From positions 1 through 22,511 of the IMG/VR virus record IMGVR_UViG_3300006900_000004: a stretch of DNA of 22,511 nucleotides. The stretch is one strand, 5' to 3'. Shown here piece after piece: positions 5,337 to 22,511 of this stretch. The position numbers and the translations under genes are program-made. Every line of letters begins with the position of its first letter. Position 1 is the first letter of the stretch. Source of the stretch: a virus. The notes under the pieces were generated by a model. It did not search any database and was not told the origin of the DNA. It saw only the letters and a list, made by a program, of their open reading frames with translations.

Positions 5337-7252
5337 TGAGTTTTGAGGGAATACCAAAACAAGTTAAAGGTGGGGGAACAGAACGTAATATAAAAGAGTA
5401 CAAAGATGAAGTTCCTGTTACTAAATTAAATGATATATCTAATCTTATTTCTAATGTTCAAAGAAACAGACCAGATTTCGAAAAAATTACACGAGTTCTT
5501 GATAATGTTAATTATAGAATTGCACAAAGAAATTTAGCAGAAATAGAAGAAGATATAATAAATACTACTACTCGCTTATCAGCTGAAGATAAAAGACTAT
5601 ATTTAGAGTTCGTAAAAAAATTAGAATCAAATCCTGAACAACTATATGAGTATAGTTCTGCCGAGTTAGATTTATTTAAAGAGAAGTTTTGGGAAGCTAG
5701 AGATAAAGCTATTAATAAAATTTTTAAGTCAAAAAGCAATGGAAATGAAAAACGTGGGAAAAGATATAAAAATAGATATTTAAGTGAAAATATTCAAAAC
5801 AAACTCTGGTCAGATATACGATTCAATGTAACGAAAACTGGTTGGGGAAAGATTAGAAACTTACAAGTATATGAAGATAGTAAAAGCAGCGTATATCTTC
5901 TTGTCGATGGTATAACTCCAAGTATTCAGTATTGGGAACAGATTGATATGTTAACTAAAGATTTGAATGCTAGTATTGTAAAAGCTCGAAATGATGAAGT
6001 TATAAGTGACACGGAATTAAAGAACGATAATGAGAAGTTTAGCATAGTAACTTGGTTAAAAGCAATAACTCATGGTGGTTCACCAGAAGATGGTAGTGGT
6101 TTTGAAGAATTTATCAGCGAAGACAAGAAGCTTTTAGCAATTAGAAATGATGGAAAAATGGATTTTACATTTTTGTTAGATAAAATACAGCAAAAAAATG
6201 TGACTGGCCAGTATGTCCATAGAAAGTTTTTTGGGAAAGATTTAGACTTAAATACAAGAAATATACTTATCAATCATTTGCAAGGAAAATCTATTAACCA
6301 ACTAAGACAAGATAAGATAGAGTTTGATAAGCATAATATGGCTATTAGTGCTAAATTTAGTGTAGCTCTGGATGCAATTACAAATGGAGCAGGAAAAGAA
6401 TTTACTTTAGAGTGGTTTGATGAGAATATTAATTTTAAAGGGGTTACCCCGACAGAGAGGAAACAACGCCTTAGAAATTTATTTATAAAAGCATTAAAAG
6501 GAGAATTAACGACACCAGAGAATTTCCAAATTGAAACTATAATCCGTAACGGGATTTTAGACAAAAGCATTAGATCAGATAGTCAATTAATTGACGTTAC
6601 ATATCTTAAAGATGGTATAAGCACCACAATAACTAAATCAATGAATGATTTAGAAGCAGCTAATTTAATATCATCTCCTTTCGCTAATAATCAAAGACAA
6701 AAATTGCATGGAGAAAATACTCAAAAAATTAATATATATAGTAGTGAATTTAATCAAATTAAAACTGCTGGTGCATGGGCAGATGGGGCATGGGGAGTTT
6801 TAGCCCGTGACGAAAATCAAAGTAGAATAGCAAGATATCCTGCGTATAGTCAAGAAGTAACAGGTATGTTATTGAAAGCAGAAAATAATTATATAGCTGG
6901 CAGGTTGCAGGGGTACAGCAAATTGCAATTACAAGATCCTGAAACTGACATACGTTTCGAAGTAGATTTACTAGAGTATGGTGTAAAAAAGGGTGATTCA
7001 ATATATATATGGAGAGATTTTCATGTTGCCTCACGAGACGAACTAAATGCTTTTCGTGAGTTTTCGCGAGGGAAATATAGCGAAACCATTCTCAAATTTC
7101 TTCCACCACTAATGGATGAAGATAGTAGTTATGAAGAATATATAAAATCAGAAGACTATAAAAAATGGCTTGGTGACAAAAAGAAACAAAAACAATGGAA
7201 AGAGTATGTTAAGGCAAGAAAGCTGATAGAAGCTTACAAGGATAACAGATGA
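5336..7252 (+). CDS. Internal virion protein, T7 gp15-like by position
   Basis: About 638 residues, charged and mainly helical in character, with no membrane segment and no catalytic motif that I recognise. It is rich in K, N, E and D. I chose the ATG at 5336 because it shares a base with the previous stop (TAATG), the same coupling used by tail tubular A and B. An in-frame GTG three codons upstream (5327) is also possible. The end overlaps the next start as ATGA. T7 gp15 (747 residues) occupies this place and forms the middle part of the ejected DNA-delivery tube. The role is inferred from gene order. Confidence 0.6.
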   Translation: MSFEGIPKQVKGGGTERNIKEYKDEVPVTKLNDISNLISNVQRNRPDFEKITRVLDNVNYRIAQRNLAEIEEDIINTTTRLSAEDKRLYLEFVKKLESNPEQLYEYSSAELDLFKEKFWEARDKAINKIFKSKSNGNEKRGKRYKNRYLSENIQNKLWSDIRFNVTKTGWGKIRNLQVYEDSKSSVYLLVDGITPSIQYWEQIDMLTKDLNASIVKARNDEVISDTELKNDNEKFSIVTWLKAITHGGSPEDGSGFEEFISEDKKLLAIRNDGKMDFTFLLDKIQQKNVTGQYVHRKFFGKDLDLNTRNILINHLQGKSINQLRQDKIEFDKHNMAISAKFSVALDAITNGAGKEFTLEWFDENINFKGVTPTERKQRLRNLFIKALKGELTTPENFQIETIIRNGILDKSIRSDSQLIDVTYLKDGISTTITKSMNDLEAANLISSPFANNQRQKLHGENTQKINIYSSEFNQIKTAGAWADGAWGVLARDENQSRIARYPAYSQEVTGMLLKAENNYIAGRLQGYSKLQLQDPETDIRFEVDLLEYGVKKGDSIYIWRDFHVASRDELNAFREFSRGKYSETILKFLPPLMDEDSSYEEYIKSEDYKKWLGDKKKQKQWKEYVKARKLIEAYKDNR

Positions 7253-10200
7253 CAGATGAAGAATATGATATTAGCTTAGAAATTCAAGGGCAGAAATCTG
7301 GAGATGATAACCTTTACGAAAGAAATCTTCTGTTAGAACATGCTGGTGCGTCTGACAAACTAATAGAAAAAGATGATAACCTTTACGAAAGAAATCTTCT
7401 GTTAGAACATGCTGGTGCGTCTGACAAACTAATAGATAAAGAGCTTGGGCTTGGTGATAAAGAACCATCTATGAGTGATATCATTCCTATTGATAATTGG
7501 TGGCTCAAACAAAAAGAAGAATGGGTAGGTAAGGAGTTTAATCTCACGGAGGCACTTAAAAAAGGTGTTGGTATGACCTTACATAACGCATCAGAGGAAT
7601 ATCACCAAGATGGTGAAACTGCTTGGTGGGGATGGGCAGACCCCAGCCTCAAAGCATATGACCCAAAAAATTATCCAGACGAAAGGCATTTAGAAAGGGC
7701 AATATCGACATTGACAATGATAGGAGTCGATCTTCCATACTATATATTAGGTGCAATTCCTGGTGCTTATCTGGGCTATAAATTGAGGAGTCCACGATTA
7801 GCAGCAATGGCAAGTGGTTATACTTCTGGATTTTTAGTTGATTCTTTAAAATATATGTATTTAGAAGCACTTAAACGAGGTAAAATAAAAGATTTTGATG
7901 AATGGTGGGCTATTTTTTTAGAGTATGGGGTAAAACCTGGACATGAGGCAGGTCTACAGATAGGAATAGCAGCAGGTGCAAGAGCTTATGTCGGAGGAAT
8001 GGGCCTAAAAGGAACAATAGGAAAATATCTGCCTGTTACTAAAGATGCTATAGCCAAATTTGCTGCACAGTATACCAGTTATTTAGCTATGGGTGCATTG
8101 ATTAGTAAAGAAATGCCTAAAAAAGATGACTATATTCATTTAGCTCTTATTTTGTTACCTTTTAATATACCTTTATTTAAGGGAGTTCCTGAAAAAATTG
8201 ACTCAACTAAGCAAAAGAAGATGATTGACAATAAGATGACAGACCTTGAAAATATAAAAAAAGATACATATAGTCCACAAGAAATTCTTTCATGGATAGG
8301 AGAGAAAAAAACTAGGGTTGAGGATTTTGTAACAAAAAATGTATTTAGGTTTAGAGAGGATGCCAAAAAAACAGAAGTTGAAATTACAAATTTAAAAACT
8401 GAATTAAAAGAATTGTTAGAACAAGAGAAAAAAGACCCCACAACTATTGAGAATAAACAACAACAAAAAATATTTAATGCAATAGAAACAGAAAAGAAAA
8501 AAGGTATAAAAAGTGACAAAATACTTACTAAAGTAGAAGAATCTGTAGAAAAATCTATTAAAAAAGAAGAAATGCTTTCTCTCGAAGAAGAAGCAAGGAA
8601 GTTTAAAACTGCAGATGAGTTTATGTATGCAGAAAAAACATTACCAATAAAATTAGTTACATCAATAGTTCCAAGAGAAAAAATTATTTCTACAGTTGGG
8701 AAAATTGAATCAAGAACACCAGATGCTCCCGTAGTAGTTACAATAGAAGGTGGCAAGATAATAATTAAAGATGGAAATAATAGATATTATCAAAAAATAG
8801 ATAAAGGTGCTAAAACAATTAAAGTAGTTTTTATTCCTGAAAATGATGCACTACTCATCTCCATCTGGAAGATTGCACAGAAGAAAACATCTGAAATTGC
8901 AGGTGAAATTGCAAAACGAGCTAAAATTTCTGCTTTAGAAAAAGAGTTAAATAAAGTTGAAACTGCTATCAAAGAAATAACTTCTGCTATAGATGAAGCT
9001 AGAAATAATAGGATCATAGAAATAGAAAGAACTCTTAGAGAGTTAGGAGAGTTAGAAGGCCCAGAAGTTCGGAAATACAATAAAGATATTAAAACATTAA
9101 AGGATCGTATAGAACAACTGGAAACAGAATTGGGCGAAACTGTAATAACAGGTAAAAAAACTCTTGGTCGAAAACGTATGGAAGATCTAATAACAATCGG
9201 AAAACGAGAAGAATTAATACGAAAAAAAGATGAATTAGTAGGATTAGAAGAATTTAAGCTAATGACACATGCGTTTGAAACATTTAATCTTTTGTCTGAA
9301 CGAACAGATCGTATTTTAAGCCCAGCTCAAAAACATATAGAAAAAATTACCAATTTAAATATAACAGTATCTAAAAAAGTTTTTACGCTACCTACTTGGA
9401 ATAATATAAGAAATCAATGGCTTGATAGAAAATATCCTATAAAAAGAGTATTAGACGAAGCTAAAAAAGTAGGGGTAGAATTTGTAAAAGGTGGGCCTAC
9501 TGCTTATCATTGGGCTAGATTGTCTCCAGGACAGTTGGGTAAAGTGTTTTATTTTACCGATTATGGTACTTTTGATTTTCAAGGTAAACCATTAGGAAAA
9601 CCAGCCAAAGAATTTTATAAGTTTATTACAGATTATAAAGATTATAAAGAAAGACTTGTTAGGTACGAAGAGTCTGCTTGGTATGTAATTGCTTTAAGAA
9701 TAGTTGAAGTAGCAGAGATAAAAGGTATAAGAAAAGGAATAACTGATAAAAAAAGTGTTATAGAAGCTAAAAAAGCTGTAAAAGAATTAGAAGCTAAATA
9801 TGGAAAAGAAATTAAAGATTTTGCTAAAGACTATCATGAGTTTGTTCTTGCACCTATTATATACGGAGAAGGAGCAGGACTTTTCTCAAAAGGTACGGCA
9901 AAATATTTAGCAGAACATAACAAAGATTTTGTTTCTTTCAGAAGGGTATTAAAAATTGATGAAAAAACTGGCTTACCTATAAAAGATGCTTCAGGAAAGC
10001 TTCAATTAAGTGGCAAAATTAAATCGCCTATTCATACCATGAAAGGAACGAAAGAACACTATCAAGTTCTCGACCCACACCAAACAATATTTGAAAATGC
10101 TCACGATATATTATTAATGGCAGAAAAAAATTATGTTTTAAATGAATTTATTAAAAAGATAGAAGCAGCACAAGAAATTAATCCAGAGTTTTATAAAGAT

Positions 10201-20836: not shown

Positions 20837-20864
20837 TTGATATTAGTTAATTTTTGGTTACTCT
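20837..20864 (+). promoter_or_regulatory. Possible rightward promoter of the Cro-like gene
   Basis: TTGATA (20837-20842), 16 bases, then TACTCT (20859-20864). The -35 is good, the -10 weak. Transcription from it would begin at or next to the ATG at 20871, consistent with a leaderless message. ATTAGTTAAT (20842-20851) lies between the two boxes. Confidence 0.3.
20842..20851. promoter_or_regulatory. Candidate operator ATTAGTTAAT, copy 1
   Basis: A ten-base element with ATTA and TAAT inverted arms. The identical sequence recurs at 21501-21510, at the methyltransferase promoter. It sits just upstream of the Cro-like gene, so autoregulation is a natural guess. In AT-rich DNA a ten-base match can arise by chance. 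Confidence 0.3.
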
Positions 20865-20870
20865 TTCTGT

Positions 20871-21101
20871 ATGGATAACATTATAGAACCACAAACAAAG
20901 TACCAATTAGCTATTGAAAGAAAGAATGAGATAGTCGGGAAATATGGAGGTAGAAACCTATCTCGCATGCTGAATATTTCGCACCCAGCAGTATCCAAGT
21001 GGAAAGCTATACCACCATACCGAGCATTTCAGATCGCCAAACTAGGTGATTATGAAGTAGAATATATAAGACCTGACTTAAATACTTCACCCATTATTTA
21101 G
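20871..21101 (+). CDS. Cro-like helix-turn-helix regulator
   Basis: A 76-residue DNA-binding protein. The helix-turn-helix is NLSRMLNISHPAVSKWKA (about residues 29-46), where SHPAVSKW is the recognition helix. It is followed by IPPYRAFQIAKL and EYIRPDL, as in small Cro/YdaS-type phage regulators. It is transcribed away from the SSB-like operon, as in a phage genetic switch. No ribosome binding site precedes the only possible start; the bases before it read TTTCTGT. It may be translated from a leaderless mRNA, as lambda cI is. No partner repressor or integrase is visible, so a temperate lifestyle cannot be claimed. Confidence 0.75.
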   Translation: MDNIIEPQTKYQLAIERKNEIVGKYGGRNLSRMLNISHPAVSKWKAIPPYRAFQIAKLGDYEVEYIRPDLNTSPII

Positions 21102-21146
21102 TGGGGAATGGCATTTTTCTCTATCTTCTGTAAGCCGTTTCCCACT
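21100..21146 (+). other. 13-bp stem-loop directly after the Cro-like gene
   Basis: AGTGGGGAATGGC (21100-21112) pairs with GCCGTTTCCCACT (21134-21146), 13 bp with two G-T pairs and a 21-base pyrimidine-rich loop. It begins at the stop codon of the Cro-like gene and ends just before the first repeat cluster. No uridine run follows. It may end the Cro-like transcript or be part of the origin-like region. Confidence 0.55.
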
Positions 21147-21149
21147 CTA

Positions 21150-21213
21150 TAGCAATCGCATGCAATCGCATAGCAACGCATAGCAACGCTATTTGGTAAT
21201 CGCATAGCAATGA
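21150..21213 (+). repeat. Repeat cluster A, 10-bp units
   Basis: Units run AGCAATCGCA, TGCAATCGCA, TAGCAACGCA, TAGCAACGCT, then after a six-base break TAATCGCA and TAGCAATG. The core GCAATCGC is the inverse complement of GCGATTGC in cluster B. The 10-bp period puts each copy on the same helix face. Confidence 0.85.
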
Positions 21214-21287
21214 TGTTTTTTTTTTTGAGTTTTTTAGGGTTTTTTTTCAAATGTCATTTTACCCCTGTTTTATATGGTTGTTTTATG
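21207..21287 (+). other. T-rich core between the two repeat clusters
   Basis: Contains runs of 11 (21216-21226), 6 and 8 T, then a mixed stretch rich in T with one CCCC. No ORF. It is flanked by an inverted pair, ATCGCATA (21199-21206) and TATGCGAT (21288-21295). It is a good candidate for a DNA-unwinding element if the region is an origin. Confidence 0.55.
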
Positions 21288-21357
21288 TATGCGATAGCAA
21301 TGCGATTGCAATGCGATAGCAATGCGATTGCAATGCGATAGCAATGCGATTCGATAG
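21288..21357 (+). repeat. Repeat cluster B, alternating 11-bp units
   Basis: Five exact 11-bp units: GCGATAGCAAT at 21291-21301, 21313-21323 and 21335-21345, alternating with GCGATTGCAAT at 21302-21312 and 21324-21334. A broken sixth unit, GCGATTCGATAGC, follows from 21346. The A/T alternation makes a 22-bp higher-order repeat. ATTGCAAT is palindromic. Confidence 0.95.
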
Positions 21358-21371
21358 CCCTTCACTTCCTA

Positions 21372-21458
21372 TAAGTAAGTAAGTAAGTAAGAAAGTAAGA
21401 AAGTAAAAAAGTACAAGATATAGTAGTGTAGAAGTATAAAGATAGTAAGTAAGTAAGT
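21372..21458 (+). repeat. TAAG tetranucleotide tracts
   Basis: TAAG five times in a row at 21372-21391, then AAAG/TAAG/TAAA variants to about 21412. After a 32-base interval a shorter tract of GTAA units lies at 21445-21458. The top strand is purine-rich. Tracts like these are prone to length change by slippage. Confidence 0.9.
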
Positions 21459-21473
21459 GCATTTCTTTTTTTT

Positions 21474-21502
21474 TTGACAACTGGATTCTATTCTATTAAG
21501 AT
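21474..21502 (+). promoter_or_regulatory. Rightward early promoter (sigma70 type)
   Basis: TTGACA (21474-21479), a 17-base spacer, and TAAGAT (21497-21502). The -35 is the consensus and follows a T-rich run. Transcription would start near 21509, just before AAGGAG (21511-21516) and the methyltransferase ATG at 21522. Confidence 0.6.
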
Positions 21503-21510
21503 TAGTTAAT
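21501..21510. promoter_or_regulatory. Candidate operator ATTAGTTAAT, copy 2
   Basis: Identical to 20842-20851. It overlaps the end of the -10 box and the expected transcription start of the methyltransferase promoter, where a bound repressor would block initiation. Confidence 0.3.
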
Positions 21511-21521
21511 AAGGAGATAGA

Positions 21522-22163
21522 ATGAAGACACTAGAATTATTTTCAGGCACTAAAAGTTTTAGCAAAGTAGCTAAAGAATTTGGTCATAAAACATTGACTG
21601 TTGATTTCGACCAAGAATTAATGCCTGATATTGTAGCTAATATTTTAGACTTTAATATTGATATGCTGGACGGATACAAACCAGATATAATATGGGCAAG
21701 TCCACCATGTACTCAATTTACTGTTGCATCTATGGGAAAAAATTGGAAATATGTTTACAAAGAAGATAAGAAATTAAGCCCAGAAGATTATTTACCTGCT
21801 AATCAAAAAACAAAAGAAGCTATTAAGATCATAAAAAAAACAATGGAAATAATAAACGAACTAAACCCTAAACATTTTTATATTGAAAATCCTAGAGCCG
21901 TATTGAGAAAATTAAACTTAATACTTTATCCATACACGACAGTTACTTATTGCCAATATGGTTTTACAAATATGAAACCTACTGATATATGGACTAACAA
22001 CCCCAAGTGGATTAAGGTGGCAAAGTCTTGCAAGAATGGTATGCCCTGCCACGAATCTGCACCACGAGGGTCGAGGACAGGTACGCAGGGAATAAAAAAT
22101 TCAATAGATAGAGGTAAAATTCCACCAGATTTGATTAAGGAGGTTTTGTCTTTTAGTTTATGA
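21522..22163 (+). CDS. DNA C5-cytosine methyltransferase (orphan)
   Basis: A 213-residue enzyme with the catalytic motifs of the family: LFSGTKSFSKVA (residues 6-17, S-adenosylmethionine binding), SPPCTQF (60-66, catalytic C63) and ENPRAV (122-127). APRGSRTGTQG near residue 178 is typical of compact phage versions. It is shorter than restriction-type enzymes, with little room for a large target recognition domain. No restriction gene is adjacent, so it probably protects the phage DNA from host nucleases or marks it. AAGGAG precedes the ATG by six bases, under a strong promoter. The stop overlaps the next start as ATGA. Confidence 0.85.
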   Translation: MKTLELFSGTKSFSKVAKEFGHKTLTVDFDQELMPDIVANILDFNIDMLDGYKPDIIWASPPCTQFTVASMGKNWKYVYKEDKKLSPEDYLPANQKTKEAIKIIKKTMEIINELNPKHFYIENPRAVLRKLNLILYPYTTVTYCQYGFTNMKPTDIWTNNPKWIKVAKSCKNGMPCHESAPRGSRTGTQGIKNSIDRGKIPPDLIKEVLSFSL

Positions 22164-22511
22164 GAAAAAGTCCATTAACGGAACAGAGTCCTAGTTTTCA
22201 ATTTTATGCAGGAGATTGGATTAGTGATCCCAACAGAATGAGATTGAGCCTAGAAGAACAAGGTGCTTATATATTATTGTACTCACATTGCTGGAGAGGA
22301 CATACCATACCTACCGATATGGAAGTATTAGCTAGGATGTGTAATTGTTCTTTGGACAAGATCAATAAAATATTTCCAAAGATAAAACATTTGTTCGAGA
22401 AACAGGATGGTCTTTTAATATGTCCACAAGCTGAGGAGGAGAGAAAAAAACAGGCACTGAATCGAAACAAGCGAAGTGTCGCAGGCAGAAAAGGTGCAAA
22501 AGCGAGATGGG
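22160..22511 (+). CDS. DUF1376-type replication protein, N-terminal part (runs off the window)
   Basis: Only the first 117 residues are present; the frame is open at the window end. FQFYAGDWISD (13-23), LSLEEQGAYILLYSHCW (29-45), IPTD, LARMCN and the end GRKGAKARW match the DUF1376 pattern, found in phage and prophage replication proteins. These usually act at the origin, ahead of a helicase or helicase loader, which would be expected beyond the window. The start is in an ATGA overlap with the methyltransferase stop. AAGGAGG lies about 20 bases upstream. Lying 800 bases from the repeat array, it is the best candidate here for an origin-binding protein. Confidence 0.75.
   Translation, partial: MRKSPLTEQSPSFQFYAGDWISDPNRMRLSLEEQGAYILLYSHCWRGHTIPTDMEVLARMCNCSLDKINKIFPKIKHLFEKQDGLLICPQAEEERKKQALNRNKRSVAGRKGAKARW

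Follow-up and report, generated by a model that had tools for sequence, protein, structure and literature searches.

Phage replication origins of the lambda or "replisome organizer" type combine iterons with adjoining DNA that melts easily, lie either within the initiator gene or next to it, and belong to a rightward early operon with Cro upstream. The iterons of lambda are about 18 bp long, as opposed to 11 bp in the phage module described here. Iterons, easily melted DNA, an adjacent initiator gene, and an upstream Cro gene are common to lambda and to the stretch of DNA analyzed here (the window), which is the entire 22,511-base virus record IMGVR_UViG_3300006900_000004, probably a fragment. 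Compared with lambda, the phage module has a different initiator family and a triplet ladder, (CTNCAN)n, with C at every third base. The lambda ori itself lies within O (PMC8508860).

RepA_N plasmids (the staphylococcal pSK41 and pTZ2162) and the PLE RepA have an initiator with a winged-helix N-terminal domain of about 120 amino acids, to which the predicted winged helix of the phage initiators may correspond, and RepA_N replicons likewise carry short semi-palindromic direct repeats beside A/T tracts (PMC5703833, PMC7145576). The four Rep boxes to which the 120-residue RepA_N domain of pSK41 binds lie in the middle of the rep gene, such that ori is within rep, and the protein stretch encoded by ori is dispensable (PMC5703833). 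A second phage family, presented below, is like pSK41 in that its putative origin forms part of the initiator gene and codes for a linker predicted to be disordered (PMC5703833, PMC7145576), whereas the candidate origin in the window is upstream of the initiator gene. The descriptions of RepA_N replicons mention no ladder with C at every third base (PMC5703833, PMC7145576).

Trinucleotide ladders are known from the Bacillus subtilis oriC, where DnaA-trios lie opposite the DnaD recognition element CTACTATTACTTCTACTA (PMC10201434). Both oriC and the phages have binding sites, putative ones in the phages, followed by a trinucleotide ladder, which reads CTACTATTACTTCTACTA in oriC and CTTCATCTTCACCTTCA in the phages. 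Unlike oriC, the phages encode their own initiator, alternate T and A such that the repeat becomes one of 6 nt, and have only stray near-matches to DnaA boxes: none in 21100 to 21520 of the window with one mismatch allowed, and scattered one-mismatch sites in 7 of 40 relatives. The phage element is not a member of the DnaA-trio (BUS) origins, the window having TAAG repeats and its relatives (CTNCAN)n. In the ydaS-ydaT-ydaU-ydaV module of the Escherichia coli Rac prophage, as in the window, a DUF1376 gene comes after a YdaS/Cro-like gene, but YdaU genes have no ladder. Iteron origins beside or within initiator genes are established; the association of a ladder with DUF1376-like initiators appears to be new, no description of the ladder having been found in searches of the open-access literature on DUF1376, phage DnaA-trios, pelagiphage origins, trinucleotides with iterons, and replisome organizers.

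The repeat array and its neighbors

The nearest named relative of the window is Pelagibacter phage EXVC032P Baldr, with which it shares the gene order around the array: leftward a metallophosphoesterase gene, small genes, an exonuclease gene (phrog_2139), and a 200-aa gene, and rightward the Cro-like gene, the array, and the DUF1376 gene. The initial annotation had placed the array between the Cro-like and DUF1376 genes, and both are where it put them, although a methyltransferase-like gene intervenes before the latter. The features of the region are as follows.

20871 to 21101, + strand: Cro-like regulator gene (PF14549 P22_Cro, E 7e-9)
21100 to 21146, + strand: hairpin with a long pyrimidine-rich loop, between the Cro stop and the array (RNA fold -20.4 kcal/mol, z -5.6)
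21149 to 21211, + strand: cluster A, diverged iterons ATAGCAATCGC, ATGCAATCGC, ATAGCAACGC (twice), GTAATCGC, and ATAGCAAT
21212 to 21288, no strand: T-rich core, candidate unwinding DNA (from base count and alignment with relatives L005 and L006, where it is unchanged)
21289 to 21351, + strand: cluster B, five 11-bp units GCGATWGCAAT (units at 21291 to 21345)
21341 to 21360, + strand: right-hand junction GCAATGCGATTCGATAGCCC, counterpart of the pre-ladder AATGCGATTTTATCCC of relatives (by comparison)
21360 to 21369, + strand: ladder-start remnant CTTCACTTCC (by comparison with relatives)
21372 to 21413, + strand: TAAG tetranucleotide tract in place of the (CTNCAN)n ladder (TRF; alignment with relatives)
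21414 to 21420, + strand: CAAGATA, right edge of the module, conserved in Baldr-like relatives
21474 to 21509, + strand: sigma-70-like promoter, TTGACA, 17 nt, TAAGAT (boxes at 21474 to 21502), overlapped by TTAGTTAA
21522 to 22163, + strand: DNA cytosine methyltransferase-like gene (phrog_757, E 2e-25), inserted between the candidate origin and the initiator gene
22160 to 22511, + strand: DUF1376 gene, truncated where the window ends, a candidate initiator of winged-helix type (PF07120, E 4e-11; PHROG primosomal protein; AF2 model)

Cluster B was correctly recognized from the outset as five exact units at a spacing of 11, their variable base being A, T, A, T, A, and TRF scores it at 126 for a period of 22 and at 110 for a period of 11. 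Every unit contains GCAATGC, the iteron core of relatives, giving five direct copies on the + strand. Cluster A, previously read as 10-bp units with GCAATCGC, does hold repeats (TRF score of 64), but that sequence occurs only twice, the remaining copies are GTAATCGC and GCAACGC, and the spacing is 10 to 11 with a break rather than a clean 10. The best tandem score among 500 dinucleotide shuffles of 21102 to 21521 (period of at least 6) was 54, so the tandem repeats are real. The core between them, T-rich as described and 77 nt long, contains 47 T and 11 A, making it AT-rich, easily melted DNA adjoining the repeats. The window thus holds several short repeats at regular spacing, as iteron-type origins do. 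The two clusters had been said to face each other, and they are partly complementary (arms of 14 to 16 nt, 81 to 93%; single-strand DNA fold, z of -4.1), but with so nearly palindromic a unit (GCAATGC/GCATTGC), the term "inverted" is ambiguous. The TAAG tract and the family-wide CAAGATA had been overlooked. Rfam and tRNA scans of the window returned no match.

The hairpin after the Cro-like gene is not a classic terminator because no T-run follows it; strong hairpins with long pyrimidine-rich loops also occupy this place in many Baldr-like loci. The 8-bp word TTAGTTAA, a candidate Cro operator, occurs at the promoter (21502) and upstream of the Cro-like gene (20843 to 20850). The slot between the promoter and the DUF1376 gene, filled in the window by the methyltransferase-like gene, holds different small genes in loci L016, L028, L071, and L084. 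In L008 to L011 and in L009, L010, and L012, the interval from the Cro gene to the module contains tRNA-like sequences and a reverse-strand insert, which suggests that it is a cargo slot. Elsewhere in the window, a 69-bp near-exact tandem duplication (7302 to 7442) marks the start of a 1,630-aa open reading frame.

The module of Baldr-like phages and its change in one lineage

Eighty loci were collected through the Cro-like protein and, independently, eighty through a DUF1376 alignment (A1), and both sets display a single shared layout in the interval between the two genes. The order is 11-bp iterons ATRGCAWTGCY, AT-rich DNA that includes an opposed iteron copy, CCC, the (CTNCAN)n ladder, CAAGATA, a promoter, and the DUF1376 gene, which in some loci is preceded by an inserted small gene. 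The initiator gene beside the module is kept across the DUF1376-selected relatives. Ladders are 31 to 49 nt long, and at least 12 triplets stand next to CAAGAT in 75 of the 79 DUF1376-selected loci analyzed; the four exceptions are L211 to L213, in which the ladder is interrupted, and L209, which belongs to the lineage of the window. Across 40 nonredundant elements, there are 38 iteron pairs at 11-bp spacing, and a TTGAC promoter box is present in 39. In the ladders of these elements, the first base is C, the second alternates between T and A (503 of 508 steps), and the third is free. Between the ladder start and CAAGATA, the distance is most often 43 nt (24 of the 40), the others having 49 (five), 38 (four), 44 (four), and then 37, 36, or 31 nt. 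The complete Baldr genome, searched on both strands, contains the ladder once, and its other noncoding regions hold only short scattered repeats and no iteron array. The curve of its cumulative GC skew dips to a local minimum near 32 kb but tracks gene direction throughout.

The lineage of the window (with L005, L006, L007, and L209) has a TAAG tract instead of the ladder and, mostly, extra iterons. What remains of the ladder in the window is its flanks, GCAATGCGATTCGATAGCCCTTCAC on the left and ACAAGATA on the right, around a body of TAAG; a run of at least nine C[T/A]N triplets beside the DUF1376-like gene is absent, only the flanks (CCCTTCAC and CAAGATA) being retained. Judged by position and homology, this region of the window is a derived copy of the putative triplet-ladder DUF1376 origin. 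Its nearest other DUF1376 proteins, those of L210 to L213, are 78 to 83% identical, with the ladder intact in L210 and interrupted in the other three, so that the lineage amounts to a natural test of the role of the ladder.

Alignment of the window with L005 and L006, whose Cro-like proteins are identical to its own, and with L007, whose protein is 80% identical, distinguishes the stable from the variable parts of the array. The T-rich core is the same in the window, L005, and L006, and TAAG tracts differ in length. At the variable position of cluster B, L005 has T, T, A, T, A; L006 has the cores GCAATCGC and GCGTTCGC, still at a spacing of 11; and L007 has no cluster B. The spacing of 11 and the near-palindromic core are therefore kept in two of three relatives, and the A/T alternation in none. 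The 22-bp dimeric repeat seen in the initial annotation is real in the window, but its interpretation as the binding site of a dimeric protein with two differing half-sites is not supported because near-identical relatives do not keep the alternation. Loss of the array from a close relative would have spoken against an origin; L007 does lack cluster B, yet the region as such is not lost. In L006, units 2 and 4 of cluster B read GCAATCGC, which is the GCGATTGC of the window in reverse complement; the flanks are identical, and the cores look either flipped or copied from cluster A.

A pattern search for arrays like cluster B recovered the lineage of the window and an unrelated group of phages with three copies of the 11-bp GTAGCAATGCC. 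These copies lie away from any DUF1376 gene, indicating that an 11-bp GCAATGC repeat alone is no proof of an origin. In its members (L394 to L398, L401, L403, L404, L406, L407, and L409 to L411), the three repeats are followed by a noncoding AAAAG/AATAG pentanucleotide tract, and in L396 and L401, they are flanked by terminase/DNA-methyltransferase genes on one side and structural genes on the other, far from any DUF1376 gene.

Ladders inside initiator genes of a second family

When IMG/VR was scanned with the ladder alone as a DNA pattern, the matches listed comprised Baldr-like phages and, unexpectedly, many unrelated phages that carry the ladder within a gene. The product of that gene is homologous to the DUF1376 initiator (hhalign probability of 98.3), is assigned to the PHROG category "replisome organizer" in nine of nine members, and shares phrog_9327 ("primosomal protein") with the protein of the window. 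It falls below the Pfam DUF1376 cutoff, a Pfam search having matched 3 of seven genomes or records, and because most genes of this family lie below that cutoff, the kinship rests on profile-profile comparison. The intragenic order is a DNA-binding domain, other iterons (GGTTAACC...CAAAAACCAA), CCCC, the ladder, and a C-terminal domain, and iterons and ladder occur together in 71 of 71 distinct genes of one clade (a protein-selected sample).

The intragenic ladder translates into a run of serines. Serine codons in the ladder are TCT or TCA in 648 of 651 cases, as opposed to 523 of 905 elsewhere in the same genes (protein-selected loci, with a query alignment seeded from the same clade), indicating that the ladder is constrained at the DNA level and not through the protein alone.

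All 145 ladders of at least nine triplets, on either strand, within 763 kb of protein-selected loci adjoin a DUF1376-like gene. With the blind pattern, the same holds for 99 of 108 among the matches listed on viral contigs and for 11 of 20 matches on bacterial genome contigs, whose record labels (Burkholderiaceae, Glomeribacter, Paraburkholderia, Chloroflexi, Omnitrophota, Schlesneria [Planctomycetes], Acidobacteria, Nitrospiraceae, Verrucomicrobium, and others) may be wrong where they come from metagenome bins. Among isolates, Acetobacter phage phiAX1 has 9 triplets at the same gene position (5 to 11 in its relatives), and Leptolyngbya phage Lbo-JY16 has 6 triplets there, with GCAATGC-type iterons. 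The ladder is widespread but not universal: it was not found in Pam1, PfDIW6, or 50 distinct sequences of Rac-type YdaU genes that served as a control (longest run, 4 triplets), showing that not every DUF1376 protein needs one. The E. coli K-12 ydaU gene (L208, about 5600 to 5680) has runs of CCCCCCCTAAATCCCCCCCGGGGG where other initiator genes have the ladder.

The AlphaFold (AF2) model of the DUF1376 protein in the window is predicted to form a winged helix followed by a long helix (mean pLDDT of 80). The six structures that match it best in the PDB are initiators of plasmid replication and Rep-DNA complexes (4pql, 4pta, 5kbj, and 4pt7), at weak similarity (E of 0.015 to 0.04, TM of 0.43 to 0.47). 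For the model of the second family, most matches were to winged-helix regulators of a generic kind, and 4pta ranked only 37th; the linker in that family is predicted to be disordered (residues 120 to 147 below a pLDDT of 50). A PDB sequence search with the DUF1376 profile gave no credible match. Unlike RepA_N initiators, the phage proteins have no Pfam RepA_N (PF06970) match, the scans returning DUF1376 and generic HTH families, and the likeness in fold is weak.

A candidate origin and its alternatives

The repeats and the ladder are conserved across the family, and the ladder is tied to homologous initiators and is under constraint at the DNA level. From iterons and ladder kept beside an initiator, we infer that 21149 to 21421 is the replication origin of a Baldr-like phage, with iterons bound by the winged-helix DUF1376 protein and a ladder serving as a melting and loading track, a reading to which we assign a probability of about 0.78. 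An iteron-type origin between divergent early operons, as first proposed for the array, is the best-supported reading, its slot being kept in dozens of relatives just upstream of the DUF1376 gene and an equivalent of iterons and ladder lying within homologous initiator genes of other phages; the half-site component has dropped out. The small winged-helix protein encoded just downstream would bind the 11-bp iterons of clusters A and B and bend or melt the adjoining T-rich or AT-rich DNA. Elsewhere in the family, the opened DNA would include the ladder and end at CAAGATA, marking the far edge of the opened track. The ladder, a G-poor strand with a C per three bases, would then be exposed and read as single-stranded DNA, either by the initiator or by a primase or helicase encoded downstream (both annotated in Baldr), and would position the helicase or primase. 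A pitch of 3 or 6 nt is out of phase with the 10.5-bp double helix, which favors recognition of a single strand or filament. In the lineage of the window, iterons appear to have been amplified (cluster B) and the ladder overwritten by TAAG repeats, such that the opening step there may have been rewired or may rest on the T-rich core.

The array could instead be an operator, the early promoters being controlled by the Cro-like protein or another repressor bound cooperatively to the repeats. Its position just downstream of the Cro-like gene and upstream of the promoter at 21474 to 21502 would suit such a role, as would near-palindromic repeats on one helix face. However, it is a different motif, TTAGTTAA, that stands at both early promoters (20843 and 21502), although 8 bp are not significant alone, and of 40 relatives, 30 have operator-like TTAACTAA/TTAGTTAA-type words close to the DUF1376 promoter, whereas only 3 have them in the iteron part. 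Moreover, an operator would account neither for the ladder nor for its intragenic counterpart at homologous initiators, and phages with the intragenic element need no such promoter arrangement, making this explanation unlikely.

Slippage and gene conversion might also have generated clusters A and B and the TAAG tract as neutral, mutation-driven satellite DNA without function, in keeping with the variation of cluster B and the TAAG tract among near-identical relatives and the lack of cluster B in L007. For the copy number of cluster B and the TAAG tract, in the lineage of the window alone, these processes are a fair account. As an explanation of the whole, they are very improbable: the slot persists in dozens of diverged relatives, and a fixed C, alternating T and A, and a variable third base are unlike the products of slippage. 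A partition, packaging, or recombination site (of the parS, pac, or att type) is hardly to be expected, since, although such loci have tandem near-palindromic sites and some relatives have tRNA-like genes nearby, the region always accompanies a replication-initiator homologue, some 10 kb separate it from the terminase gene on the circular map of Baldr, and the Baldr annotation includes neither an integrase nor a partition gene. A Rho-utilization site was set aside as the role of the ladder because the ladder of the second family lies within translated genes and the same strand of the window carries purine-rich TAAG.

Beyond the origin proposed for the window, it is possible, at somewhat less than even odds, that in a large class of phages with initiators of the DUF1376/primosomal superfamily, infecting hosts in several bacterial phyla, a ladder with C at every third base marks the origin and is recognized in single-stranded form, serving without DnaA boxes as the phage equivalent of DnaA-trios and the DnaD recognition element. 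The lineage of the window, with a TAAG tract in place of the ladder, would then be a natural replacement experiment. The identity of the ladder reader would become testable in cultures of Baldr with Pelagibacter HTCC1062, phiAX1 with Acetobacter, and Lbo-JY16 with Leptolyngbya. Most phages of uncultured marine and freshwater bacteria have unmapped origins, and DUF1376 is still a domain of unknown function. If the proposal is true, a signature of 40 to 50 nt adjoining the genes of a single family would reveal the position of the origin in many phages at once, and the trinucleotide ladder at initiator sites, known from bacterial chromosomes, would exist in phage replicons without DnaA boxes.
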